A stretch of DNA of 19,385 nucleotides from assembly GCF_019402445.1 (NCBI RefSeq), contig NZ_SRZM01000240.1, positions 1 to 19,385 on the forward strand. The letters run 5' to 3'. The position numbers were made by a program, and so were the translations under genes. The notes beneath the pieces are model-generated. The model was not told where the DNA came from. It was given only the letters and a program-made list of their open reading frames with translations, and did not search any database. Within the stretch, counting starts at the first letter, position 1. Each line of letters opens with the position of its first letter. The stretch is from Brachyspira pilosicoli (lineage in GTDB: Bacteria; Spirochaetota; Brachyspiria; Brachyspirales; Brachyspiraceae). Positions 2,929 through 18,689 of this stretch are shown piece after piece.

Positions 2929-4014
2929 TTAGGTATTTTCTCTCATTATCTTTAATACCTTAGCACATGAAATTATATCTGGTTCTATATTTCTAAACAT
3001 CTCTTTTACATTCTTATAAATATTGCTTGTAAGATTTATGCCGTAATTTATAGTGCTCTCAATCTTTCCTGTCATAACGAGATCATCTGTAATAATCACG
3101 CCTTTAAAACCCATATCTTCCTCAAGTAACTTTCTATATTTTTCTGACATGCTAGCAGGAAGTGTATCATCTATATATTTATTTTTTATATGCGAAACTA
3201 AAACCATCTCAGCACCCAAATCTATAGCCTTTTGAAAAGGTATTAATTCTTTATTTTTCAGCTCCTCTAAAGTCTTATCTATCACAGGAAACTCACTATG
3301 CGAATTAACAACGGTGTCCCCATGACCAGGAAAATGCTTAACAACGCTTATAATACCAGCATCTTTTTGAGCTTTTATTGTAGCTTCCACCATTTTTGAA
3401 ACCATCTCAACATTTGTAGAAAAACTTCTATTGTATATATAAGAATCTTTATTGCTTGGCACGTCGCATAACGGACCTAGTATCATATTAATACCCATCT
3501 CTTTTAGAAACTTTGCTTTGTTGTATGCAATGTTGTAGGCATATTCAATGCTGTTGCTGTCGCCTATCATTTTGGCTGAAATGTCTTTGTATTTGTCGAA
3601 AGGTATTCTAAAGACTTCGCCTCCTTCTTCGTCTATAGATATTAACATATTTTTGTTAACATATTTCTTTAAGTCCGATGTGAGTTTCTTTAATTGTTCC
3701 TCATCTACTATATTGTAATTAAAAAGTATAACTCCAGAAACATGATTATCTTTTAATGTCTTTATAGTTTCCTCACTTAATACTGTGTCTGTGATGCCCA
3801 CCATAGTAAGAAGCCCTCGCCTCTCTTCAATGCTCATACTATTAACTTCATCTATATAATCAGACAAATAAGAATATTTTTTTTTCAATTCCAAAATATA
3901 TTTTTCATCTTCTGTGATGCTGTCTTTTTTGGTGCAAGAATTAATAGCTAGCCCAACAATTACAAAACTAAATAAAATTATAATCGATTTAACAACTTTG
4001 AAATTTTTACGCAT
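2929..4014 (-). CDS. GH3 family lipoprotein, NagZ-like beta-N-acetylhexosaminidase
   Basis: This 361-residue protein has a lipoprotein signal (Arg/Lys start, hydrophobic stretch 10-23, lipobox ending INSC with Cys27), so it should be a periplasmic or surface lipoprotein. The body is a glycoside hydrolase 3 barrel of the NagZ type: IDEEGGEVFRI (127-137), the substrate-binding NRSF (195-198), KHFPGHGDT (226-234) and GVIITDDL (305-312) with the probable nucleophile Asp310. The Asp-x-His acid/base dyad reads Asn237-Ser-His239, an Asp-to-Asn change. NagZ enzymes remove GlcNAc from peptidoglycan fragments or glycans; here that is inferred. The C-terminus after the nucleophile is atypical. The ATG at 4014 has GAGG 10 bases upstream. 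It overlaps the preceding GH3 gene by 37 bases, implying translational coupling. Confidence 0.85.
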   Translation of the reverse strand: MRKNFKVVKSIIILFSFVIVGLAINSCTKKDSITEDEKYILELKKKYSYLSDYIDEVNSMSIEERRGLLTMVGITDTVLSEETIKTLKDNHVSGVILFNYNIVDEEQLKKLTSDLKKYVNKNMLISIDEEGGEVFRIPFDKYKDISAKMIGDSNSIEYAYNIAYNKAKFLKEMGINMILGPLCDVPSNKDSYIYNRSFSTNVEMVSKMVEATIKAQKDAGIISVVKHFPGHGDTVVNSHSEFPVIDKTLEELKNKELIPFQKAIDLGAEMVLVSHIKNKYIDDTLPASMSEKYRKLLEEDMGFKGVIITDDLVMTGKIESTINYGINLTSNIYKNVKEMFRNIEPDIISCAKVLKIMRENT

Positions 4015-4892
4015 AATTCACTATCCTCTGTTTTAATATTTTTTATCTTTTCTCTATTTAATTTATAAAACCTGTAATCAATAACATTAAGCAAATTAGT
4101 ATTTATAAGAGAATATTTATTAATATAATCACTCATTACAACGCCTTTAAAGTTAAGGCTATTAAAAAGATAATCTCTGTATAATTTTTCATTTTTAATA
4201 TGGCTCATCACAAAGAAGTCGCTTTCTATTGCCGACAAGAAGGTTTGTTTTGAGTCTATTATATTTTCAACATTTTTTATATTATCTAATATATATAACT
4301 CATCATCATAGTATTTTGGAAAATATTTTGCGGCGGTGAGGACGCCACTGTCTTTATACGCTTTAATTGTTTGAGATATTAACTTTGAAGCAATTTGTTT
4401 ATCACCGCTGAAGATATGCTCTTTTAGATGAGATTTTTCATTACAGAGAGTATTTACCACAGGAGATAAAAACATATTAACGCCAATAGCTTTAAGAGTA
4501 GATGCTCTTTTTTTAGCAATATCGTATGCATAAGTTTCGCTTTGCCTCTCACCAATATAGCTTTGATAAACCTTAAAGTGCTGGTCAAAAAATAAATTAT
4601 GCGTTGGCTTATAATCTTCGTCTAGTGCTATGAATATTTTTTTGTTTATATTTTCTTTTATATTTTTTATGAGTCTTTCAATAGTATTAATATCGGCTAT
4701 ATTAATGATTATTCCTTTAACATCATCATCTTTTATTATGTTAATTAAGTCATTATCATAAGTTTTAACGGCGAGCATTATTTGCAGATTATTATTTATT
4801 TTTTTAGTGTTATGTATTTTTATTTCGTAGTAGAGATAGCAGAAAAGGAGAGCTATAATAACAATAATCAAACTAACAAAAATATAAAACAT
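3978..4892 (-). CDS. Degenerate GH3 paralogue, membrane-anchored, probably inactive
   Basis: This 304-residue protein has an N-terminal membrane segment (residues 3-22) without a lipobox. The rest follows the neighbouring GH3 protein block by block: IALDEDYKP (88-96) for IDEEGG, an Ala-Tyr-Asp-Ile-Ala-Lys segment for the AYNIAYNKA block, AAKYFPKYYDD (187-197) for VVKHFPGHGD, FVMSHIKN (227-234) for LVSHIKN, and FKGVVMSD (248-255) for FKGVIITD. It keeps the Asp at the nucleophile position but has lost GHGD, the catalytic His and the EEGG..R and NRSF substrate residues. It is therefore probably a pseudoenzyme. Placement ahead of the intact-looking paralogue with a 37-base overlap suggests a tandem duplication whose products are made together and may interact. 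No strong ribosome site is visible before the ATG at 4892. Confidence 0.75.
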   Translation of the reverse strand: MFYIFVSLIIVIIALLFCYLYYEIKIHNTKKINNNLQIMLAVKTYDNDLINIIKDDDVKGIIINIADINTIERLIKNIKENINKKIFIALDEDYKPTHNLFFDQHFKVYQSYIGERQSETYAYDIAKKRASTLKAIGVNMFLSPVVNTLCNEKSHLKEHIFSGDKQIASKLISQTIKAYKDSGVLTAAKYFPKYYDDELYILDNIKNVENIIDSKQTFLSAIESDFFVMSHIKNEKLYRDYLFNSLNFKGVVMSDYINKYSLINTNLLNVIDYRFYKLNREKIKNIKTEDSELCVKISKLLNRL

Positions 4893-8022: not shown

Positions 8023-9303
8023 ATGATGAAAAACAATATACTAATAATAGATGATGAAGAAGATATTTTAAATGCATGCAAAAATGTATTAGAAGATGAA
8101 GGCTATAATGTTGATATTGCTAAAAACTACGAAGAAGCTTTAAAAACATTTGATAACAAAAAAATAGATTTAGTATTTCTAGATGTATGGCTTCCTAATG
8201 TAGATGGTTTGGATATATTGTCAAATATAAAAAATAAATATCCTGATACTAATGTTATAATGATGAGCGGTCATGCTGGGGTGGAAACTGCGGTAAGGGC
8301 TACTAAAATGGGTGCTTATGACTTTTTAGAAAAGCCTATTAGTGTGAGTAAACTATTATCTTCTTGCGATGAAGTTTTTAAGAAAAATGAAAATATTATA
8401 GAAAATAATACATCAAACAACAATAACACTCATCATCATAAAACTAACAACAAATATAAAGTAAAGCAAAGAACTATTGCCAAAAGTATAGTGGTAAGCG
8501 GTTTTGCTCTAATGGAAGGAAGAAAAACAGCACTTACTTTAGTACCTGCTGAAGTAAATACAGGCATCGTTTTTATTGATATTAATACCAACACACAAAT
8601 AAAATTAGACCACACCAACATACTTTCAAAAGATAAATCAGGAGCAGTAAACTCTACAGCATTAGTTGCAGGAAACAGATATATAAAAACAACCGAGCAT
8701 TTCTTGGCAGCACTTCATATGATGGGTATAACAAATTTAATAGTAAAATGCGATGGAGAAGTTCCTAATGTTGATGGTTCTGCTTTGGTATTTTGTAATG
8801 CTTTAGAAGAGGCTGGTTTTGTTGAGCAAGATGATTATATAGAGCCTATAGTGATAGATGAAACGCTAACCTATGGAAATGTTAATGATAATGAAACATA
8901 TATAATACTCTCTCCATATAATGGTCTTGAGGTGAGTTTGCGTATAGATTTTGCAGGAACAATCGGCGTTCAGGAATATACATACAAGTTTGACAATTTT
9001 GAACAGTTTACTAATGAAGTGGGAAGGGCAAGGTCTTTTAACACTATAGACAATATTGACTATGCTCAAAAGATGGGTATGGCTGGAAGCGGTATGATAG
9101 GAAGTCATATACTTCTTTGTGACGGTAAGGTAATTAATACTAAACTTCATTTCGATAATGAGTTTGTAAGACATAAGATTTTGGATATAATAGGAGACTT
9201 ATATATATTAGGAAGACCTATAATAGGAAGGGTTGTGGCTAATAAATCTTCACATTCCTTTAACCATTCTGTAGTACATGACCTTGCTAATAGATATTTA
9301 TAA
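8023..9303 (+). CDS. lpxC: Receiver domain fused to LpxC (UDP-3-O-acyl-GlcNAc deacetylase)
   Basis: This 426-residue fusion starts with a full response-regulator receiver domain (residues 4-122): acidic pocket Asp10-Asp11, phospho-acceptor Asp54 in FLDVWLP, Ser82 and Lys104 in FLEKPIS. An Asn/His-rich linker (about 123-146) joins it to a complete LpxC domain (149-426). LpxC is the zinc deacetylase committing cells to lipid A synthesis. Its active site is intact: Glu225-His226 in TTEH, His384, Lys385 and Asp388 in VRHKILDIIGDL, and His411 in KSSHSFN. The family's GLHSG motif near the LpxC start reads ALMEG, losing a conserved but non-ligand His. It lies 17 bases upstream of a sigma factor gene and heads a three-gene operon. 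AGGA precedes a double ATG; the first is used. Phospho-control of LpxC is inference; no histidine kinase is in the window. Confidence 0.92.
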   Translation: MMKNNILIIDDEEDILNACKNVLEDEGYNVDIAKNYEEALKTFDNKKIDLVFLDVWLPNVDGLDILSNIKNKYPDTNVIMMSGHAGVETAVRATKMGAYDFLEKPISVSKLLSSCDEVFKKNENIIENNTSNNNNTHHHKTNNKYKVKQRTIAKSIVVSGFALMEGRKTALTLVPAEVNTGIVFIDINTNTQIKLDHTNILSKDKSGAVNSTALVAGNRYIKTTEHFLAALHMMGITNLIVKCDGEVPNVDGSALVFCNALEEAGFVEQDDYIEPIVIDETLTYGNVNDNETYIILSPYNGLEVSLRIDFAGTIGVQEYTYKFDNFEQFTNEVGRARSFNTIDNIDYAQKMGMAGSGMIGSHILLCDGKVINTKLHFDNEFVRHKILDIIGDLYILGRPIIGRVVANKSSHSFNHSVVHDLANRYL

Positions 9304-9320
9304 AGGACAGCATAAAATTA

Positions 9321-10175
9321 ATGCCAAATAGTAGAACAAAGAGTAATATAGAAGAAAATAATAATATATCTTTATATTTTGCAGATGCCAAGAGGGAGAA
9401 ACTTCTTACTAGAGAAGAGGAAATAGAATTAACTCAGAGATTAAAAAAAGGCGATTCTCAAGCTAGGGCTAAACTTATAAGAAGCAATTTAAGGTTTGTA
9501 ATAAGCATTGCTAAGCAGTATAAAAACAGCGGTTTACTTTTAGAGGATTTAATAGGTGAAGGTAATTTAGGTCTTATAATAGCTACAGACAGATTTGACC
9601 CAGACAAGGGATATCATTTTATTTCTTATGCTGTTTATTGGATAAGGCAGAGCATATTAAGGGCTATCAATGAAAAATCAAGACTCATAAGGCTTCCTTT
9701 GAACAAAGCTATGGATTTGGTGGATTTGGAGAGGGCTGTTCATCAATGTTATTACAAAACTGGTCATATGCCTGATGTTGAGGATTTGGCTTCTATATTA
9801 AAAAAAGAGCCTAGAGAAATTAGAAATATTATGGCTATGAATAATGAATATGTGTCACTTGAAAAAGATTTTAATATGGACGGTGTTAAAGACAGATTAG
9901 TTGATGTAGTTGAAGATAAAAACAGTAAAACTGTAGAAGACATATTATCTGATAAAGAGCTTACTGAAGAGTTAAAAATAGCAATGGAAGAGCTTTCTGA
10001 TATAGAAAAAGAAATAATCAATGCAAGATACGGTCTTGACCAAGAGAAAAAGACATTAAAAGAGGTTGGAGAGAAGTATTCATTCACCAAAGAACGCATA
10101 AGGCAAATAGAAAAAAAGGCTCTTAAAAAAATGCATTCCAAAAGATATAGCTCTCTTAAAGATTTCTTAAACTAA
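9321..10175 (+). CDS. Sigma-70 family RNA polymerase sigma factor (group 2-like, no region 1.1)
   Basis: This 284-residue sigma factor has region 1.2 (about 15-45, LLTREEEIELTQRL), region 2 (50-121, with DLIGEGNLGLIIATDRFDPDKG and the -10-binding YAVYWIRQSILRAI), region 3 (about 122-200) and region 4 with its helix-turn-helix (245-270, TLKEVGEKYSFTKERIRQIE). It lacks the acidic region 1.1 and long non-conserved region of a primary RpoD, so it looks like a group 2 (RpoS/HrdB-like) alternative factor; a short primary sigma cannot be excluded. AAAGGA is 13 bases before the ATG, and the gene follows REC-LpxC by 17 bases. Its stop codon overlaps the hemW start (TAATG). Its region 2 and 4 residues suggest promoters near the standard -35/-10 type. 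Confidence 0.88.
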   Translation: MPNSRTKSNIEENNNISLYFADAKREKLLTREEEIELTQRLKKGDSQARAKLIRSNLRFVISIAKQYKNSGLLLEDLIGEGNLGLIIATDRFDPDKGYHFISYAVYWIRQSILRAINEKSRLIRLPLNKAMDLVDLERAVHQCYYKTGHMPDVEDLASILKKEPREIRNIMAMNNEYVSLEKDFNMDGVKDRLVDVVEDKNSKTVEDILSDKELTEELKIAMEELSDIEKEIINARYGLDQEKKTLKEVGEKYSFTKERIRQIEKKALKKMHSKRYSSLKDFLN

Positions 10176-11302
10176 TGTCTGGTCTTTATATACATATACC
10201 CTTTTGCACATACAAATGTAGCTACTGCAATTTTTTTTCTGTTGTTAATATGAATGAAAAAGAAACATATAAAAACTACGCTGATGCATTAATTGAAGAA
10301 TTAAAATTAAGAATAGATGATTATAAAGAAGAGATAAAAACAATATACTTTGGAGGAGGCACGCCTTCAGTATTAAACGCTAATTTACTTAAATATTTAT
10401 TAGACAATATATTAAATATTCTTAAAAATCATCAAGACATAAAACTAATAAAAGAAATAACAATAGAATCAAATATTAATGATATAAACAGTGAATATAT
10501 TAATTTTTTAGAAAGTGTAGAAAATATAAGAATATCCCTAGGTCTTCAAACATTCAATGAAAAAGCTTTGTCTCTCATAAATAGACGCACAGAATTAGAA
10601 GAGATTGTTAATGCCCTAACACTCTTAAACGCCTCTGCTATAAATAACATTTCTCTTGACTTTATATCGGGACTGCCCCTAAATGATAAGCTTCAAACAA
10701 AAAAAGACATTCTAAAAGCATTAGAATTACTACCCAAAACAAAACATATATCTCTTTACTATTTGGAGCTAACAAAATCACTTGAAGAGAAATGGAGAGA
10801 TTATCTGCCAAAAGAAGAGGAAAGTGTGGAATATTATAAAATATCTTCAAACACATTAAAAGATTTGGGATTTATAAGATACGAAATATCAAACTATGCT
10901 ATTAATAATTATGAGTCAATACATAACTCAAACTACTGGAAACTAAAAAATTATTTAGGGTTAGGAGCTTCTGCTGTAGGATACTACAACAACGAAAGAT
11001 ACGAAAATATAAAAAATGTAAAAACATATATTGAACACATTAAACAAAATAAAAAACCTATTAAAGAAATAGAATATATAGACAAAGAAACACAAAAAAA
11101 AGAGTTTATATTTCTCTCTCTAAGGACTGTAAAAGGCATAAATATAAATAATTATAACACTTTATTTAAAGAAGATTTTAAAGACAAATATTCATCAATT
11201 ATAAAAAACAACAAAAATTATTTCCTTATAACAGATGAATATTTATCTATAAAAGAAAATTATTTTAATTATGCAGATGAAATTAGTTTATTATTTTTAT
11301 GA
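10175..11302 (+). CDS. hemW: HemW-like radical SAM heme chaperone
   Basis: This 375-residue radical SAM protein has the 4Fe-4S cluster motif CTYKCSYC (Cys11, Cys15, Cys18) followed by NFFS. The CxxxCxxCxF pattern is that of HemW rather than coproporphyrinogen dehydrogenase HemN, which has a fourth Cys. SAM-binding GGGTPS is at 60-65, followed by RISLGLQTF, LDFISGLPLND and HNSNYWKLKNYLGLG. HemW proteins bind heme and deliver it to respiratory proteins; they do not oxidise coproporphyrinogen. Two conserved spots are altered: GRxH near the barrel middle reads NRRT, and the usual GAH motif reads GASAVG, so heme handling may differ. The start overlaps the sigma factor stop by one base, indicating translational coupling. 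Its last six bases overlap the convergent trpR-like gene. Confidence 0.85.
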   Translation: MSGLYIHIPFCTYKCSYCNFFSVVNMNEKETYKNYADALIEELKLRIDDYKEEIKTIYFGGGTPSVLNANLLKYLLDNILNILKNHQDIKLIKEITIESNINDINSEYINFLESVENIRISLGLQTFNEKALSLINRRTELEEIVNALTLLNASAINNISLDFISGLPLNDKLQTKKDILKALELLPKTKHISLYYLELTKSLEEKWRDYLPKEEESVEYYKISSNTLKDLGFIRYEISNYAINNYESIHNSNYWKLKNYLGLGASAVGYYNNERYENIKNVKTYIEHIKQNKKPIKEIEYIDKETQKKEFIFLSLRTVKGININNYNTLFKEDFKDKYSSIIKNNKNYFLITDEYLSIKENYFNYADEISLLFL

Positions 11303-11720: not shown

Positions 11721-14700
11721 TTATTTTGGTATGCCAGGAAGTATGTAGTCAAATAGAGTATAGCTTCCCTTAAATAAAGTGTTCATATCTGAAGCATTTA
11801 TTATATTAGGGTTTACAGTATTGTTTTTAATATATCTGTAAGAGTCTATAACGCCATTATTAAAGTTCATATATAAATACTTCATAGCAGTATAATAATC
11901 GCCCGATAAATCTGTGCTGTATGTAAACATTAATTTATTGTTGCTTCTGTCGCTTAAATACTTAAATATATCAGCATTTCTAGCAGGAGATAAGAATATA
12001 TCTTCTTTATTATAAGGCTTATTATAATTAGTGTCTATTCCTATATAGTGAGTAAGAGGCACTTTTCTTTTTCCATCAGCATAACCAACAGCTAAACTCT
12101 CTAATGATGTGTAAAAATTAGTTTGAGTATTTAATTTAATATTAGCCTTGCCTATATTAATAACGTCCATAGGCACGTACTTTAACTCTCTTATCTTTAT
12201 AACATCAGCATTCTTAAAGTCATTAAAATAAGCAAAAGGTATAGTAAATAAATTAGGATAAGAGCCTGTAATATAGACAGTGTTCACCCTTGATGCATTT
12301 TTAGATACATCTGAAGATAGCATTTGAGACTCTATAGCTTTTAATGCTTTCATTCTTTCATTAGCATTAGGAGCATTTGTAAATGCAGTTAAACTACTTC
12401 TTAATTTATCAATAGATACAAGAGAAGATTTTTTTACTTCATTATCACCCACAACATAACTATAAGAAGTATATTTATCATCTTCATAAGAATAGAATAT
12501 AAACATAGTATTTGTGTTTTCATTACTAAATATGTTATATGCATTATAAATATTCTTTCTAAAATCGCTCTCAGGCACTCTTATTTTATTTAGAAGTCCG
12601 TATATATAACTTGGCTTATCCTTATAAAGCGAATAAAACAAATTAGCAAATGATGAAATAGTATTAGCTTCAAATATATACTGATTGCCGTAAATATAAT
12701 CCATAGTTAAGAATATATTAGCTTCATTTGTAGTTTTATTATCTAATATTGTATTTGCAACTGTGAGTATTTGATTTGTATTTGTCATTAGAGTGAGTAA
12801 GTTTGTTACTTTATCTAAAGGAGTTTTAGCATATATTAAATCATAAAGCACTGCTATTTCTAATATTTTATTTTTATTTGTGCCTGTAGTTCTCTGTGCT
12901 ATATAATTTACGTATCTTACATTATTTTCTACAGTTTCGCCTGATTTTAAGAATCTTGATAATGTGCGAGGAGTAAAGTATTCATCTATTAAATGATAAT
13001 TTTCATTTGTGTATAGATACATAAAATGCAAAGCTCTTCTAGCACCCTTAACAGCCCCTTCATCTCCAAGTCTTCTATAAACAGGAAGCATTGCCTTCAT
13101 AAAGTAGTAGGCATTAGAATCGCTTATATTACTGTAGGAGGAAGCAAAATATTTATATCCGTCTTCAGAGAGATTGTATGCAGTGTTGGTGTCTTTTGCA
13201 TTATATCTATCTTCTATAAAATAAGCATAATTGTCCATAACCTCATTAGGAGATTGTGAATAGCTTATAATATTAGAAATCATGCTAACAGAAGGCGTTT
13301 TTTTGTATGATGCAAGCAAACGGCTTTTGAAATTATAAGTTTCATTTGAAAGAGTGGTCATGCTGTTATCTGGCTTTCCGTATACTGTAAATAAATTGTT
13401 GTCATAGCCTTTCATGCTCTCTTCCAAAGAATTAGTTACAAGACTTTGGAAATAATTAGTATAAAACATTATTCTTGAATATGTATTAGAATTGCCTACC
13501 ACTAATGCTATATTATTAACTTCTTTTAATACTTCTTTATTTTCATCAAAAGTTTTCTTGTCTGCATAAAGAATATAGAAATTCTTTTTCATTAAGTTTG
13601 ATATATCAGAAGCTTTAGTGTCTGTAATATCTACAACCAAAGGCACATAGGCATTAGTTAATAAATCATTAAAAGGCACAAACCTAAACTTTCTCACTCT
13701 ATTAGTAGCTCTAATAGTGTTAGTAGCTTGAAGAGTGTTATTAGTGGCATTGTTTGTAATTATATTATTAGTATATAGATTAGTGTCATCTTCATTATCT
13801 ACATAATTAACCGGCATCACTCTAGCTTCATTTTCTCTATAATTATCTGCATAGTTTACATTATTTGTAAGAAGAGTGTTGCTTGCAGAAGAGGCAGTCA
13901 TATCTATATTTTTTCTGTCGTTTCTATTAACTTTATAAAAAGAAATTAATCTGTTATCAACATAAGCAACCTTTGGAGGAAGCATATATTCAGTAGAATC
14001 ATAAAGCTCGCGTACAAAGGCATTATTATTACTCATAACAATAGGACTCTCACCAATATGAGTAACATAATTTTTTGTTTTTATTAAGTCATTAGTTTGA
14101 TAATAGAAATAAGTCTTTTTATTCTCCCTCACAAATCTATAACCCAAATAAGTATCCCATATTAGAGTTTCATCACTACGCATTGATTTATCTATATCAG
14201 TAGCCTTCACATCGCAAATTACTATATTTTTTATAGGTGTATTTTCAAAAGTTTTAATAGCTTCTTTTTCATATTCTGTAATTTCTTTTAGAGATGACTC
14301 TTCAAGCTTTTTGTCATAATTAGCTGTTACTGCAGACAAATATTTTTGATAAGCATAGAGGGCTTTTTCATATAGTTTATAATAATCTCTAAGATAATAG
14401 TTATTCTCTCCGAGTGTATATAGTCTTTTATCTAAGAACTTCCTACGCATATCTATTGCATCAAACATAGCAAGTATATTAATGCTAGCATCAGGATAAT
14501 TGCCTTCCAAAAACTCTATTACTTTATACCTAGCCTCTTGCAGTATGAGATTATTTTCTTCTACAAAAGTAATCATAAACACGCTTTCTCTTAATCTCTG
14601 TAATATTCTAAACACATACATTACAGGCTCATCAAGACTGTCAGGATAAATATCTCTATACTTCTCACTAAAATCTATTAAAGTAGTAAGTATAGCAATC

Positions 14701-17700
14701 TCCTCAACTGCAAAAGCATTAACTTTAGCCTTAGAAAAAGCAGATATATATTCTCTAGCAGCCTCTTCAATATTGCCCGCAAGCTCATAGGCTTTAGCTA
14801 AATTGTATCGAATAATAATTTCAGTCTTTAAGTCCACAGGGAAGTTCGAGTTTGATGAGAGAATATATTTATATCTATCTATAGCATTTTTTAGCATATA
14901 AAGTCTTTGAACATTAACATCATGCATGCTCATATCCAAAGATCCGTCATTATTTTTCTTTCTGTTAAGCATTAAATCATTAGCTTCAGCAGTAAGCTTC
15001 AAAGCCATTATATATTGAAAAGCTGCTATATGTGAATATAATAATAATCTGTCTTTAGAGCTTACGCTGTTATTTGTAGAAAGCACCTGAAGAGTTTTTG
15101 TAGTGTCAAAGAGCTCCATAAAAAACTCTCTTCTTATAGCAGTTAAATCATTTTGAGATAAATATCTTAAATAAAGCGATGATAAGCTCAAATAGTTTTT
15201 AGCATCATTTTGAGCATTTTCGTATATTAAACTAGGGTTATTGTTAAGGGCATTAGAGTTTATAGTTTTTCTGTATTCTTCTATAGACTTTCTAAAAGAC
15301 ATAATAGAATTAGAAACAGAGCCTTGCTTATAATATAAATAGCCTTCATTGTTGTAGTATGTAGCAAGCATTAAAGGCTGTATTGATTTTTTAGGCTTAT
15401 CTTTAATAATATAATTCCTATAAGAAGATAAAGCATCTCTTGACTCTGAATATCTTCCCATCTTCTCATAAAGCTCTTGATATATAGAATAAAGCATCTG
15501 CTGTTTATCAACATTAAGAGGCTCACCTGGTATATATCCTCCAAAAGAAGCAAGACCTAAGTTTACAACATTAATATTAGCACCATATAAAGTAATACTT
15601 ACATAATTTGGATTATATGAAGAAGAATCCAAACTGTCTATTTTAGCCTTCACATTGTCGCAGTATTTTAATGCATTGTTATAATCTTCAAGTTTTAAGT
15701 AGCAAGCAGCAATAAGAAGTTCATTAAGTTCATTCTGCTCTACATTGTTTGTAATTATGGTGTTTCTCTCTAATAATGATTCAATAGCTTTAGTGTAGTC
15801 TTTTTGTTCAATAGCTGCAACTGAAGTGTAGCCTACTATTTTGTATACTGCCTCACTGTCGCCTAGTCTTTCAAAAATCTCTCTTGCCTTATTATATTCT
15901 CTATAAGCTCCATTAATATCATTGTTCATCCACAAAGAATATCCATAAAAGAAATGATACCAAGCCTTACTCTTATCACTTCCTACACTGTTTAATAAAA
16001 CTTCAGCTTCTTTATATTCATTAGCCGCATCAGAGTATCTGCCGTTTATTAAGTAAGAGTTTGCAAGCATTATAGATACAACATTAGGCTTAGTTTTTAT
16101 CTTGCTTTTAGCCATTATAAGAGAATCAATTATTTCGCTTTCTAAATTTGGAGTTTGAAGAGTTAATTGATTGTAGCCTATATATTTATCATTATTTACA
16201 TTATTGTCTTTATAGCTTGGCACTAATTCCATTATGCTTTTATATGTTTTATCGCTTTGAAGAACCTGCATTTTTAAGGCTTCTGCAAATGTAAGCATTT
16301 CAGCCTTTTTTATATAATAATTCTCTTCATCAGGATAAAGAAATATAGCAAAATCCATATAAGAAACTGCTTTATCTACTATAGTATTAAAAGACTTATT
16401 CAAATACAAATAAAATCCGTCTTCTCTTTTTTTCTCGCTAAGCACATACCTTTCGCTGTCATATTGTTTAGACATAGCTATGCCGTAATATCTATTAGCC
16501 AAATAATAGTAGGCATTAGCAAGCTCTGCATGTGCTGCATGCTCTGAATATCTTGTAGATAAAAGAGTTCTCTCCCTCTCTGCTATGGTTTGTTCTAGTG
16601 ATTCTATAGTGCTGTATGCTCTAAGTCCGCTTTCAATAATTCTTGAAGAAGCATTGGCATCATTAGGATTATAAACTAAAACTTCTTGATAATTGTCATA
16701 AGCAATATTGTATCTCTCTTCATTATAAGCATTATCTGCTAAAGTTCTATAATAGTTGGCAAGTATTCTTTTTGATTCTTTTGCTTCATAAGTAGGCTCA
16801 AAGTTTTTGCCTCCGCTTTTTACAGCATTTACTAATAATTGATAAGCTGCATCATCTTTTTTGTCTAATAATATTTTAGCATTAGCATAATAACCCAAAG
16901 CAAGCATTATATCATTTTTTGATTCCATATAGGGCTGAAATAAATTAGTTGCCGCATCATAATTTTTAGCAAGTATAAGTCCGTCTAAATATATAAGTCT
17001 GCTTGCTACAGATAATGGTGCATAGGGGTGAGAGTTATCTATTATTGTTTGATAAGGAATCTTTGAATCTTTTATAAAATCTTTTGCTATTTCAAGCCTA
17101 TCAGCAAATATTAAATCTTTTCTTCTGTAAGGTTTATTATACAAGTCCTCATCTGCAGGATATTTATAATTATTATCTTCAAGTGAATGAGAATATAATT
17201 TTGATATTAATACATATAAATCTTTGCTGCTGTCATAGTCTATTATGCTATTTAAAATTTCTAATGTTGAAGCATTTGTGTTATTTTTATTATATTTTTC
17301 ATTAGCAGATATGTAGCCCGCCCAAGATAAAGCATTTACTATATTTTCATTGCTTGTGATAATTGATTCATTTGTAGTATAATATGAAGCATTAAGCCAG
17401 TTATCATTAGTGTCAAAATTTTCATCTATCTTTAAAGCCAAAAATCCGTAAAAAGTGTTAGTATATTCTGTTGTTAGAACATTTTTTGAAGTATTGTAAA
17501 TATCTCTGTTTTTATTAGTATAGGCCTGATACATTACATCGAAATATGCCTTTGATACATTGCCCCTATCTTCATCTGAAGGGAAATACTCTGAAAACTT
17601 CTCTATTACTTCAACTTTTCTGTTATAAGGCAAAGCAACAAAGGTATTATACATATCATTAGCATTGGCATCTTTAATGAAATATTCTTTAGTAGAGCCC

Positions 17701-18689
17701 ATAGTTACTATACTAGTGCCTGAAGTGCTTAATACATAGCTTCCTACCAAAGCAGATTCATATGCTACATTAAATGTGCTTAAACTTGTATTTTCTTCTA
17801 ATACATAATATTGTCCTGTAGACAAAGAATAAGACATTAATCTTCTTTTATCATTATATGTTAAATTGCCGTCTTTATCAGTATCATTTGCTATTTCAAA
17901 ATAAATTATAGTGTCGTTGTTGTAGAATGACGGATTAAACTTAAAGGTTTTAGTATCAGTTAAAATCATCAAATTGGTTTGAATATCATTTGTGATGTAG
18001 GAGTTAGCTTGCAAGTCTACTACTGCTAATTGAGAATAAGGCTCTCCTATTTTTGAAGTAATAAAAGCAATATGCCTATCATTAAAAGAGAATGTAGGAG
18101 AAGAGGCTTCTATATCTGCTCTTTTAATTACATCTTTACCATTTGGCTTAACTGTGAAGAGTTTTTTTATATTATCTTCTCTGTCTGAAACAAAAGCTAT
18201 CATATCGGCATTATGAGAGATTTCTGGGTCTGTATCATAGCCTTTATAATCTGTTATTCTTACTATACTTTGCTCTAGATTTTCCAAATTATTTTTTGAA
18301 GTTCTAATACCAAGATTAACCAACTTATATAAATAAATATCAGAAAAAGCATCATCTCTAGTAGAAGAGAATACCAAATATTTTGATTTACTATCCACAG
18401 ATACAGAAGAATCTATTCCTGGGCTTCTTGTGAGTCTAAAAGTTTCAAGTGTATAAGAATCTACAGCAAATATATCGGTATTACCTGCATTTTCTCTGGA
18501 ATAGTATACCCAAGTTCCTTCTCTGTCTATAACAGAATCTAATACAGGGTTACCCTCTCCAGAAGTTAGAGAGTATCTTTTATACTCTCTTAAGAAAGGT
18601 CTGCTATTAAAAATAGAATCTGCACTCTTTTGACTGGATGCACAAGATAATAAAATAAATAATGGTAATAATAATAGCTTTAATTTCAT
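11721..18689 (-). CDS. Giant lipoprotein: PD40 propeller, TPR array and CHAT-like C-terminal regions
   Basis: This 2322-residue protein has a lipoprotein signal (hydrophobic 4-14, lipobox LLSC with Cys16), placing it in the periplasm or on the surface. Residues about 45-340 are TolB/PD40-type propeller blades, seen in LVFSSTRDD (105-113), IAFVSDRED (164-172) and IAFITSK (207-213). A calcium-loop-like DTDKDGNLTYND is at 269-280. About 640-1320 is helical with TPR-like units such as AWYHFFYGYSLWMNNDINGA and NEGYLYYKQGSVSNSIMSF. A Thr/Asn-rich linker lies near 1640-1665. Two regions (about 1500-1780 and 2060-2322) resemble CHAT caspase-fold domains, the second with LFTIPFAYF, but neither shows the His and Cys catalytic motifs; this assignment is tentative. 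AAAGG is only 3 bases before the ATG. It is 58 bases downstream of the STAS gene. Function is unknown; scaffolding or signalling at the envelope is a guess. Confidence 0.85.
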   Translation of the reverse strand: MKLKLLLLPLFILLSCASSQKSADSIFNSRPFLREYKRYSLTSGEGNPVLDSVIDREGTWVYYSRENAGNTDIFAVDSYTLETFRLTRSPGIDSSVSVDSKSKYLVFSSTRDDAFSDIYLYKLVNLGIRTSKNNLENLEQSIVRITDYKGYDTDPEISHNADMIAFVSDREDNIKKLFTVKPNGKDVIKRADIEASSPTFSFNDRHIAFITSKIGEPYSQLAVVDLQANSYITNDIQTNLMILTDTKTFKFNPSFYNNDTIIYFEIANDTDKDGNLTYNDKRRLMSYSLSTGQYYVLEENTSLSTFNVAYESALVGSYVLSTSGTSIVTMGSTKEYFIKDANANDMYNTFVALPYNRKVEVIEKFSEYFPSDEDRGNVSKAYFDVMYQAYTNKNRDIYNTSKNVLTTEYTNTFYGFLALKIDENFDTNDNWLNASYYTTNESIITSNENIVNALSWAGYISANEKYNKNNTNASTLEILNSIIDYDSSKDLYVLISKLYSHSLEDNNYKYPADEDLYNKPYRRKDLIFADRLEIAKDFIKDSKIPYQTIIDNSHPYAPLSVASRLIYLDGLILAKNYDAATNLFQPYMESKNDIMLALGYYANAKILLDKKDDAAYQLLVNAVKSGGKNFEPTYEAKESKRILANYYRTLADNAYNEERYNIAYDNYQEVLVYNPNDANASSRIIESGLRAYSTIESLEQTIAERERTLLSTRYSEHAAHAELANAYYYLANRYYGIAMSKQYDSERYVLSEKKREDGFYLYLNKSFNTIVDKAVSYMDFAIFLYPDEENYYIKKAEMLTFAEALKMQVLQSDKTYKSIMELVPSYKDNNVNNDKYIGYNQLTLQTPNLESEIIDSLIMAKSKIKTKPNVVSIMLANSYLINGRYSDAANEYKEAEVLLNSVGSDKSKAWYHFFYGYSLWMNNDINGAYREYNKAREIFERLGDSEAVYKIVGYTSVAAIEQKDYTKAIESLLERNTIITNNVEQNELNELLIAACYLKLEDYNNALKYCDNVKAKIDSLDSSSYNPNYVSITLYGANINVVNLGLASFGGYIPGEPLNVDKQQMLYSIYQELYEKMGRYSESRDALSSYRNYIIKDKPKKSIQPLMLATYYNNEGYLYYKQGSVSNSIMSFRKSIEEYRKTINSNALNNNPSLIYENAQNDAKNYLSLSSLYLRYLSQNDLTAIRREFFMELFDTTKTLQVLSTNNSVSSKDRLLLYSHIAAFQYIMALKLTAEANDLMLNRKKNNDGSLDMSMHDVNVQRLYMLKNAIDRYKYILSSNSNFPVDLKTEIIIRYNLAKAYELAGNIEEAAREYISAFSKAKVNAFAVEEIAILTTLIDFSEKYRDIYPDSLDEPVMYVFRILQRLRESVFMITFVEENNLILQEARYKVIEFLEGNYPDASINILAMFDAIDMRRKFLDKRLYTLGENNYYLRDYYKLYEKALYAYQKYLSAVTANYDKKLEESSLKEITEYEKEAIKTFENTPIKNIVICDVKATDIDKSMRSDETLIWDTYLGYRFVRENKKTYFYYQTNDLIKTKNYVTHIGESPIVMSNNNAFVRELYDSTEYMLPPKVAYVDNRLISFYKVNRNDRKNIDMTASSASNTLLTNNVNYADNYRENEARVMPVNYVDNEDDTNLYTNNIITNNATNNTLQATNTIRATNRVRKFRFVPFNDLLTNAYVPLVVDITDTKASDISNLMKKNFYILYADKKTFDENKEVLKEVNNIALVVGNSNTYSRIMFYTNYFQSLVTNSLEESMKGYDNNLFTVYGKPDNSMTTLSNETYNFKSRLLASYKKTPSVSMISNIISYSQSPNEVMDNYAYFIEDRYNAKDTNTAYNLSEDGYKYFASSYSNISDSNAYYFMKAMLPVYRRLGDEGAVKGARRALHFMYLYTNENYHLIDEYFTPRTLSRFLKSGETVENNVRYVNYIAQRTTGTNKNKILEIAVLYDLIYAKTPLDKVTNLLTLMTNTNQILTVANTILDNKTTNEANIFLTMDYIYGNQYIFEANTISSFANLFYSLYKDKPSYIYGLLNKIRVPESDFRKNIYNAYNIFSNENTNTMFIFYSYEDDKYTSYSYVVGDNEVKKSSLVSIDKLRSSLTAFTNAPNANERMKALKAIESQMLSSDVSKNASRVNTVYITGSYPNLFTIPFAYFNDFKNADVIKIRELKYVPMDVINIGKANIKLNTQTNFYTSLESLAVGYADGKRKVPLTHYIGIDTNYNKPYNKEDIFLSPARNADIFKYLSDRSNNKLMFTYSTDLSGDYYTAMKYLYMNFNNGVIDSYRYIKNNTVNPNIINASDMNTLFKGSYTLFDYILPGIPK

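Follow-up and report, generated by a model that had tools for sequence, protein, structure and literature searches.

An NtrX-type receiver domain fused to LpxC in Brachyspira pilosicoli and other bacteria, with a candidate partner kinase

Introduction

LpxC is the enzyme that commits the cell to lipid A, and it is a long-pursued antibiotic target. CheB and PleD are response regulators with enzyme outputs, and the protein discussed here resembles them in that a receiver is joined to an enzyme, which allows for control without transcription. To our knowledge there is no response regulator whose output enzyme is a step of lipid A biosynthesis, and a literature search found none.

In E. coli, LpxC is controlled by proteolysis through a C-terminal degron (PMC12444477). 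The same 2025 review states that alternative mechanisms of LpxC control are still emerging, and names R. sphaeroides and C. crescentus as species in which lpxC transcription is inhibited by NtrYX. Without NtrYX the lpxC transcript was 8.8-fold up, but there was no NtrX site upstream of lpxC, for which reason the authors term the effect indirect (PMC7240162). In D. vulgaris the regulator DVU2934 has lpxC as its single target (PMC3333781). The genes lpxA, lpxB, lpxC, lpxD and kdtA are listed for the B. hyodysenteriae genome, and no mention of a fusion was found in the available parts of that genome paper (PMC2650404). Likewise, the words receiver, fusion, fused and response regulator are absent from the available portions of the review (PMC12444477), and a search of open-licence papers returned no report of a receiver-LpxC fusion. 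LpxC control outside the enterobacterial FtsH-LapB-YejM route is largely an open field, in which a receiver inside LpxC would represent a third control route after proteolysis and transcription. An extra control domain on this antibiotic target is also worth knowing about in gut spirochaetes.

In this work, a 19,385-nucleotide stretch of the Brachyspira pilosicoli genome (contig NZ_SRZM01000240.1, hereafter the window) is discussed. It contains a gene that encodes a receiver domain and a complete LpxC in one protein (REC-LpxC). Among the closest described systems is NtrY-NtrX of the alphaproteobacterial type, with which there are in common the receiver type, a membrane kinase with an NtrY-like H-box and a published role in lpxC and envelope control (PMC12444477, PMC7240162). 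It differs from NtrY-NtrX in that the fused protein has neither an AAA+ nor a DNA-binding part, LpxC itself serves as the output, and the kinase gene lies apart. The canonical LpxC proteins of E. coli, P. aeruginosa and A. aeolicus have the whole catalytic domain, the catalytic and zinc residues and the fold in common with the fused protein, whereas the N-terminal receiver is an addition and the C-terminal tail is missing. In contrast to the E. coli FtsH-LapB-YejM system, the fused LpxC has no degron tail, and YejM was not found in 61 genomes. DVU2934 is likewise a two-component regulator dedicated to lpxC, but it binds DNA at lpxC and is not part of LpxC (PMC3333781). The bifunctional LpxC-FabZ protein (NF009667) is likewise an LpxC fusion; its extra domain is a dehydratase by the model description, and the window protein scored 167.2 bits with this model against a cut-off of 465.

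The fused gene and its product

The gene and the parts of its product are as follows (window coordinates, residue numbers of the fused protein).

8023..9303, + strand: REC-LpxC fusion gene, 426 aa, one frame without an internal stop
8038..8361, + strand: NtrX-type receiver domain, residues 6-113 (Pfam Response_reg; NCBIfam NtrX is the best-scoring receiver model)
8050..8055, + strand: acidic pair Asp10-Asp11 (sequence and conservation)
8182..8184, + strand: predicted phospho-acceptor Asp54 (sequence; 352 of 353 fused proteins have D here and one has a gap)
8266..8268, + strand: switch residue Ser82 of the SGH motif (sequence; S in 353 of 353)
8332..8334, + strand: conserved Lys104 of the EKP motif (sequence; 352 of 353 have K here and one has a gap)
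8362..8466, + strand: Asn/His-rich linker, residues 114-148 (AlphaFold2 disorder at 124-142; dN/dS)
8467..9288, + strand: complete LpxC deacetylase domain, residues 149-422 (Pfam, alignment with solved LpxC, structure match)
8695..8700, + strand: E225-H226, presumably the general base and a zinc ligand by analogy with known LpxC (alignment to solved LpxC; conservation)
9172..9186, + strand: H384 to D388, of which H384 and D388 are taken to be zinc ligands by the same analogy (alignment to solved LpxC; conservation)
9253..9255, + strand: H411, presumably the general acid, again by analogy (alignment to solved LpxC; conservation)

A sequence-only reading of the window had described the gene as a receiver fused to a complete LpxC through a flexible linker, and that description was borne out. 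Response_reg matched residues 6-113 with an E of 7.7e-33, and LpxC (PF03331) matched residues 149-422 with an E of 2.4e-69, covering profile positions 1-267 of 268; both are above the Pfam cut-offs. The lpxC model TIGR00325 gave 203.1 bits, above its cut-off of 187.25. Asp10, Asp11, Asp54, Ser82 and Lys104 are all at the positions that had been claimed, and the Asn/His-rich linker is predicted to be disordered, with a pLDDT below 50 at residues 124-142 (AlphaFold2).

Residues 147-419 can be aligned with solved LpxC, and E225, H226, H384, D388 and H411 are all inside the aligned stretches. When the model of the fused protein was submitted to Foldseek, the top PDB matches were LpxC structures (best E 7.1e-31); the best 50 matches listed were all LpxC entries, one of them a LapB-LpxC complex, with no receiver among them. 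The complete LpxC domain is predicted to act as a deacetylase. AlphaFold model 1, built from an 80-row alignment, had a mean pLDDT of 87.6 and a pTM of 0.67. Over two models of the fused protein the pTM was 0.67 and 0.73, so no fixed docking of the receiver onto LpxC is predicted. The fused gene is the single LpxC match in the window genome (G000). A second, ordinary LpxC alongside the fusion was considered and rejected, as none was found in G000 and there was one LpxC match per genome in 31 Brachyspirales. No RNA family reached the gathering score upstream of or inside the fused gene.

The receiver was also compared with models of full-length regulators. NtrX (NF051870) was the top NCBIfam receiver model in all four fused proteins scanned, with 120.2 bits for the window protein, 143.9 for P0188, 136.3 for P0214 and 94.9 for P0122; none of the four reaches 600, the cut-off set for the full-length regulator, which is to be expected when only the receiver is present. 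A profile of 26 fused receivers gave 129-152 bits for spirochaete NtrX receivers, 108-122 for NtrC-type receivers and at most 86 for others. As this profile was trained on fused receivers, it is the ranking among the non-fused receivers that is informative. Judged from these scores, the receiver of the fused LpxC is NtrX-type, which is new. The fused protein is nevertheless not an NtrX, since it is without a sigma-54-type AAA+ or Fis-type DNA-binding domain; Response_reg and LpxC are the only domains of the window protein that pass the Pfam cut-offs.

Distribution of the fusion

The receiver-LpxC fusion is confirmed as real and is neither a chance event nor a mis-join. Sequencing error or the mis-joining of two genes, which the sequence-only reading had allowed for, was rejected because the fusion recurs across independent assemblies. 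Of the 18 loci matched, 14 (L002-L015) are named Brachyspira or near-Brachyspira and cover nearly the full query, the closest named relative being B. pilosicoli at 93% identity. Additionally, both Pfam domains were present in all 120 database proteins among the matches listed for the fused-protein query.

A domain survey across 392 Spirochaetota genomes determined that 110 have LpxC and that 34 of these 110 are counted as fused. The 34 comprise 31 Brachyspirales (26 from the same genus as the window, 3 others from its family and 2 others from its order) as well as the genomes G040, G052 and G062. For 20 of the 34, the call was made by reading both halves with profiles or from the window sequence; another 13 were called by the length of the frame, which is 436-452 aa with a C-terminal LpxC, and in one (G005) the gene runs into the end of its contig. 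Among the 76 other LpxC genomes, the 20 that were read contained no receiver in the LpxC frame (19 true LpxC and one weak paralogue only), and the remaining unfused calls rest on frame length. Beyond Spirochaetota, both Pfam domains were present in all proteins of two match lists of at least 120 each; these lists were obtained with fused queries and indicate that the architecture is common, not how frequent it is. The source labels of the fused proteins, which are names of metagenome-assembled genomes in which single contigs may be mislabelled, include Spirochaetota, Deltaproteobacteria, Methylomirabilota, Candidatus Binatia, Verrucomicrobiae and Dadabacteria. The earlier suggestion that this is a non-standard architecture stands insofar as no description was found in the literature, but the fusion is not rare. 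REC-LpxC is a widespread response-regulator architecture, and apparently an undescribed one.

Several other arrangements of LpxC were observed. Unfused LpxC is present on many viral-collection contigs (L063-L075, L079, L082-L084). On the IMG/VR contig L076, an unfused LpxC gene and a separate receiver gene 40 bases on are side by side at 9980-11275 (LpxC E 1.2e-78, Response_reg E 3e-10), and the genes nearby look phage-like. At L033:2356-3600 (G046), an unfused lpxC has a separate, convergent neighbour that contains a receiver and scored 79.8 bits with the fused-receiver profile. In family f31, five genomes (G175, G186, G192, G198, G146) encode a weak LpxC-like protein (E 1e-10 to 1e-18), which accompanies a true LpxC in four of the five.

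Conservation and age

Conservation was examined in 353 fused proteins, which are the best-listed matches from searches with fused queries. All five receiver residues (D10, D11, D54, S82, K104) are retained in 350 of the 353 and all five LpxC residues (E225, H226, H384, D388, H411) in 352, and the exceptions are gaps, apart from a single Asp11 substitution. Median dN/dS values calculated from 20 Brachyspiraceae sequences were 0.101 for the receiver, 0.728 for the linker (taken as residues 118-146) and 0.050 for LpxC, from 185, 175 and 188 pairs with finite dS, respectively; these values are rough, as synonymous sites are close to saturation. By this measure the receiver is under purifying selection, and its low dN/dS together with the kept residues points to a receiver that is apparently still doing phosphotransfer chemistry.

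In a tree of 61 LpxC domains (31 fused, 20 unfused from 19 spirochaetes and one Pelagibacteraceae, and 10 from IMG/VR contigs), all 31 fused domains are on one side of a single branch with support of 100/99 and in 100% of 200 bootstrap trees. Matches with E above 1e-10 were left out, which removed the weak LpxC-like paralogues L058-L060. Given this one fused clade, the tree is most simply explained by a single fusion that was then inherited and transferred, with the proviso that unfused LpxC from other phyla was barely sampled and that one could still fall within the clade. In a tree of 73 receivers, from which those below 60 bits or 100 residues were left out, the Brachyspirales fused receivers are grouped at 99/97 and join three NtrX receivers at 95/78 on a branch that is not starred. 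The fused receivers are not one group in this tree and 3 changes are needed, which is compatible with one origin. Repeated fusion with the host's own NtrX receiver was considered and is unsupported, as the LpxC tree has one fused clade and the receiver tree leaves the order open. Going by these trees and the survey, the REC-LpxC architecture is old and widespread.

A candidate partner kinase

The candidate, ~590-600 aa long, is a membrane kinase whose H-box, W-xxx-A-xx-[ILV]-AHEIKNPL[TM]P, we take to be NtrY-like. In G000 its gene is split over contigs C185 and C323. With the fragment from the window genome as query, every one of the 31 Brachyspirales genomes was found to have one orthologue, with identities of 43-100%; outside Brachyspirales the matches have at most 51% identity over shorter stretches, the best of them 32%. 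An NtrY-type kinase is also present in G040, G052 and G062. The nearest NCBIfam model is LIC_11548, a Leptospira kinase family, with 153 and 194 bits for two orthologues. Where it is the best model it gives 117-194 bits, far below its cut-off of 750, and it ranks third for the G062 kinase, so the NtrY-type label rests on the H-box and on the neighbours of the kinase elsewhere.

The kinase family was matched in 181 of 392 Spirochaetota genomes, many of them without LpxC, and its presence alone is therefore not evidence of pairing. Phylum-wide co-occurrence of this family with the fusion was accordingly set aside as uninformative; the neighbourhood of the kinase gene is informative instead. Kinase loci were read in 20 unfused genomes, of ~150 that match the kinase family, and an NtrX-type sigma-54 regulator directly follows the kinase in 18 of them, or in 18 of the 19 that are readable, L171 being cut by a contig end and L172 having none. 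Eleven of these 20 unfused genomes have LpxC, and NtrX adjoins the kinase in 10 of the 11, the eleventh being L171. When five of the 18 neighbours were scanned, NtrX was the top NCBIfam model for all five (455-499 bits, cut-off 600), and all five carry sigma-54 and Fis-type domains by Pfam. Many of these unfused spirochaetes (L164-L183) have the kinase-NtrX pair beside what are presumably HPr-like and HprK-like genes, and several have an apparently RpoN-like gene there.

The fused genomes have a different arrangement. NtrX was beside the kinase in none of the 13 whose kinase locus was read (G000, G006, G009, G014, G016, G021, G027, G028, G029, G030, G040, G052, G062). Comparing 18 of 19 with 0 of 13 by Fisher's exact test yields 4e-8, a value that overstates the case since the species are related. 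Receivers were also searched genome-wide in seven fused genomes (G000, G006, G016, G027, G028, G052, G062), and among the receivers scored, which were those of the best 30 of one search that came with DNA, none apart from REC-LpxC reaches the NtrX range. Other long regulators in these genomes are NtrC-like; for those of G006 and G052, AtoC is the top model and NtrX the fourth. The pairing of the NtrY-type kinase with NtrX in unfused spirochaetes, and never in the 13 fused genomes, is new. An NtrY-type membrane kinase without an adjoining NtrX is a good candidate for the co-occurring orphan histidine kinase that the sequence-only reading had envisaged. In the loci read, no kinase gene is next to the fused gene; in G030 (L053) a large hybrid-like kinase lies at a distance of about five genes from it.

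Directly upstream of the ntrY-type kinase in G040, G052 and G062 is psd, which encodes phosphatidylserine decarboxylase (Pfam E 4.7e-53, 1.9e-35 and 3e-39), with a spacing to the kinase of 2 bases, an overlap and ~160 bases, respectively. In the Brachyspira loci scanned, a HAD-type hydrolase and not psd precedes the kinase. In Brachyspiraceae the NtrY-type kinase gene faces a small convergent gene for a degenerate receiver. Asn (FNPNL) takes the place of the phospho-Asp in the copies at L146:5093-5449, L147:6515-6871, L152:6296-6661, L155:6180-6527 and L114:554-1024, and similar small genes are present in L150 and L153.

Proteolytic control

The sequence-only reading had set the fusion against the usual control of LpxC by proteolysis, and the comparisons below cover part of this contrast. 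Past the C-terminal end of the LpxC profile there is 1 further residue in the Brachyspira group (n=121), whereas the median is 3.5 among the remaining fused proteins (n=120), of which ten have at least 15. Among unfused spirochaete LpxC, 15 of 19 have at least 15 such residues. YejM (PF11893) was matched in 0 of 61 genomes, and among 14 controls E. coli alone matches. The LapB zinc ribbon PF18073 was matched in 51 of the 61 genomes, but also in 10 of the 14 controls including B. subtilis; most matches are in frames of ~450-490 aa, which we take to be RadA. With the tail missing and YejM absent, E. coli-type proteolytic control of LpxC is unlikely.

A proposed mechanism and its alternatives

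These comparisons are best read as pointing to direct phospho-control of LpxC. We propose an NtrX-type receiver on a complete LpxC, of which Asp54 is, on balance, likely phosphorylated by the NtrX-less NtrY-type kinase, which would change the rate of LpxC. The kinase would sense the state of the membrane and, as the putative partner and perhaps also as a phosphatase, would phosphorylate Asp54 of REC-LpxC. Receivers of the NtrC family pair through their alpha4-beta5 face when active (PMC12632262), so phosphorylated REC-LpxC would be expected to pair, and the paired form may have an altered LpxC rate or altered access to the membrane. As to the direction of control, our guess, by analogy with the repression of lpxC by NtrYX in alphaproteobacteria, is that signalling would lower LpxC output. 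In the fused genomes the NtrYX-lpxC link appears to be built into the LpxC enzyme itself, and the fused receiver is likely the point at which a membrane sensor kinase acts directly on lipid A synthesis. More tentatively, REC-LpxC may be an old multi-phylum device in which NtrY phosphorylates LpxC and, where ntrY is paired with psd, sets lipid A against phospholipid synthesis in a single step that needs neither transcription nor proteolysis; we consider this broader proposal possible, though somewhat doubtful. The key question reduces to one residue, Asp54, with a candidate kinase and a psd-ntrY lipid link named.

It is also conceivable, though we consider it unlikely, that the receiver is phosphorylated by another orphan kinase (the GAF-containing kinase of contig C279 or the nudix-kinase of C20) or by acetyl phosphate, and that NtrY acts elsewhere. 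Further kinases do exist in G000, where there are 11 HATPase matches and two kinases (contigs C246 and C140) adjoin their own response regulators; every Brachyspira genome listed has other kinases besides the NtrY-type one, and the kinase gene and the fused gene are unlinked. However, the receiver is of the type that this kinase has as its partner in 18 of the 19 readable unfused loci, and no other scored receiver in the seven fused genomes is in the NtrX range.

The near-invariance of the phosphotransfer residues over three deep clades argues against a receiver that functions as a phosphorylation-independent scaffold, holding LpxC in a stable or dimeric state or close to a partner or a protease. 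For such a scaffold the loss of Asp54 would be expected, as is seen in the copies read of the degenerate receiver beside the kinase. The long disordered linker without predicted docking is what a scaffold might have, and with the E. coli degron tail missing, stability control must sit elsewhere; we nonetheless hold a scaffold to be improbable.

Receivers without an output can serve as phosphate sinks, and the wiring could be reversed, such that the receiver is a sink through which LpxC abundance or substrate load tunes the kinase. The kinase without an adjoining NtrX in the fused genomes would fit with this, but in the fused genomes enumerated there is no NtrX-type target left to compete with, which makes a sink very improbable. 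That the receiver is an inert leftover of gene fusion, for which its rate of evolution at about twice that of LpxC (dN/dS 0.101 against 0.050) could be cited, is scarcely credible for a domain that is under purifying selection while the linker drifts, that keeps its key residues in 350 of 353 proteins, and that is part of the only LpxC found per Brachyspirales genome.

Genomic surroundings in the window

Direct phospho-control as proposed above concerns the fused protein, and its gene lies head to tail with two others in the window (8023-11302).

9321..10175, + strand: sigma-70-family factor (Pfam), directly downstream of the fused lpxC
10175..11302, + strand: radical SAM protein (Pfam), presumably HemW-like; its start overlaps the stop of the sigma-factor gene

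The sigma-70-family gene is likely in the same operon as the fused lpxC. A sigma gene follows the fused lpxC in 16 of the 22 loci read, of which L015 and L056 are apparently the same contig; among these 22 loci it does not follow in genus g3, family f2 and the other fused families. Elsewhere in the window, two adjacent genes at 2929-4892 overlap at 3978-4014, each with a glycosyl hydrolase family 3 N-terminal domain, and 11721-18689 encodes a 2322-aa protein that begins with what resembles a signal peptide and for which a weak match to the PD40 propeller is the only one.
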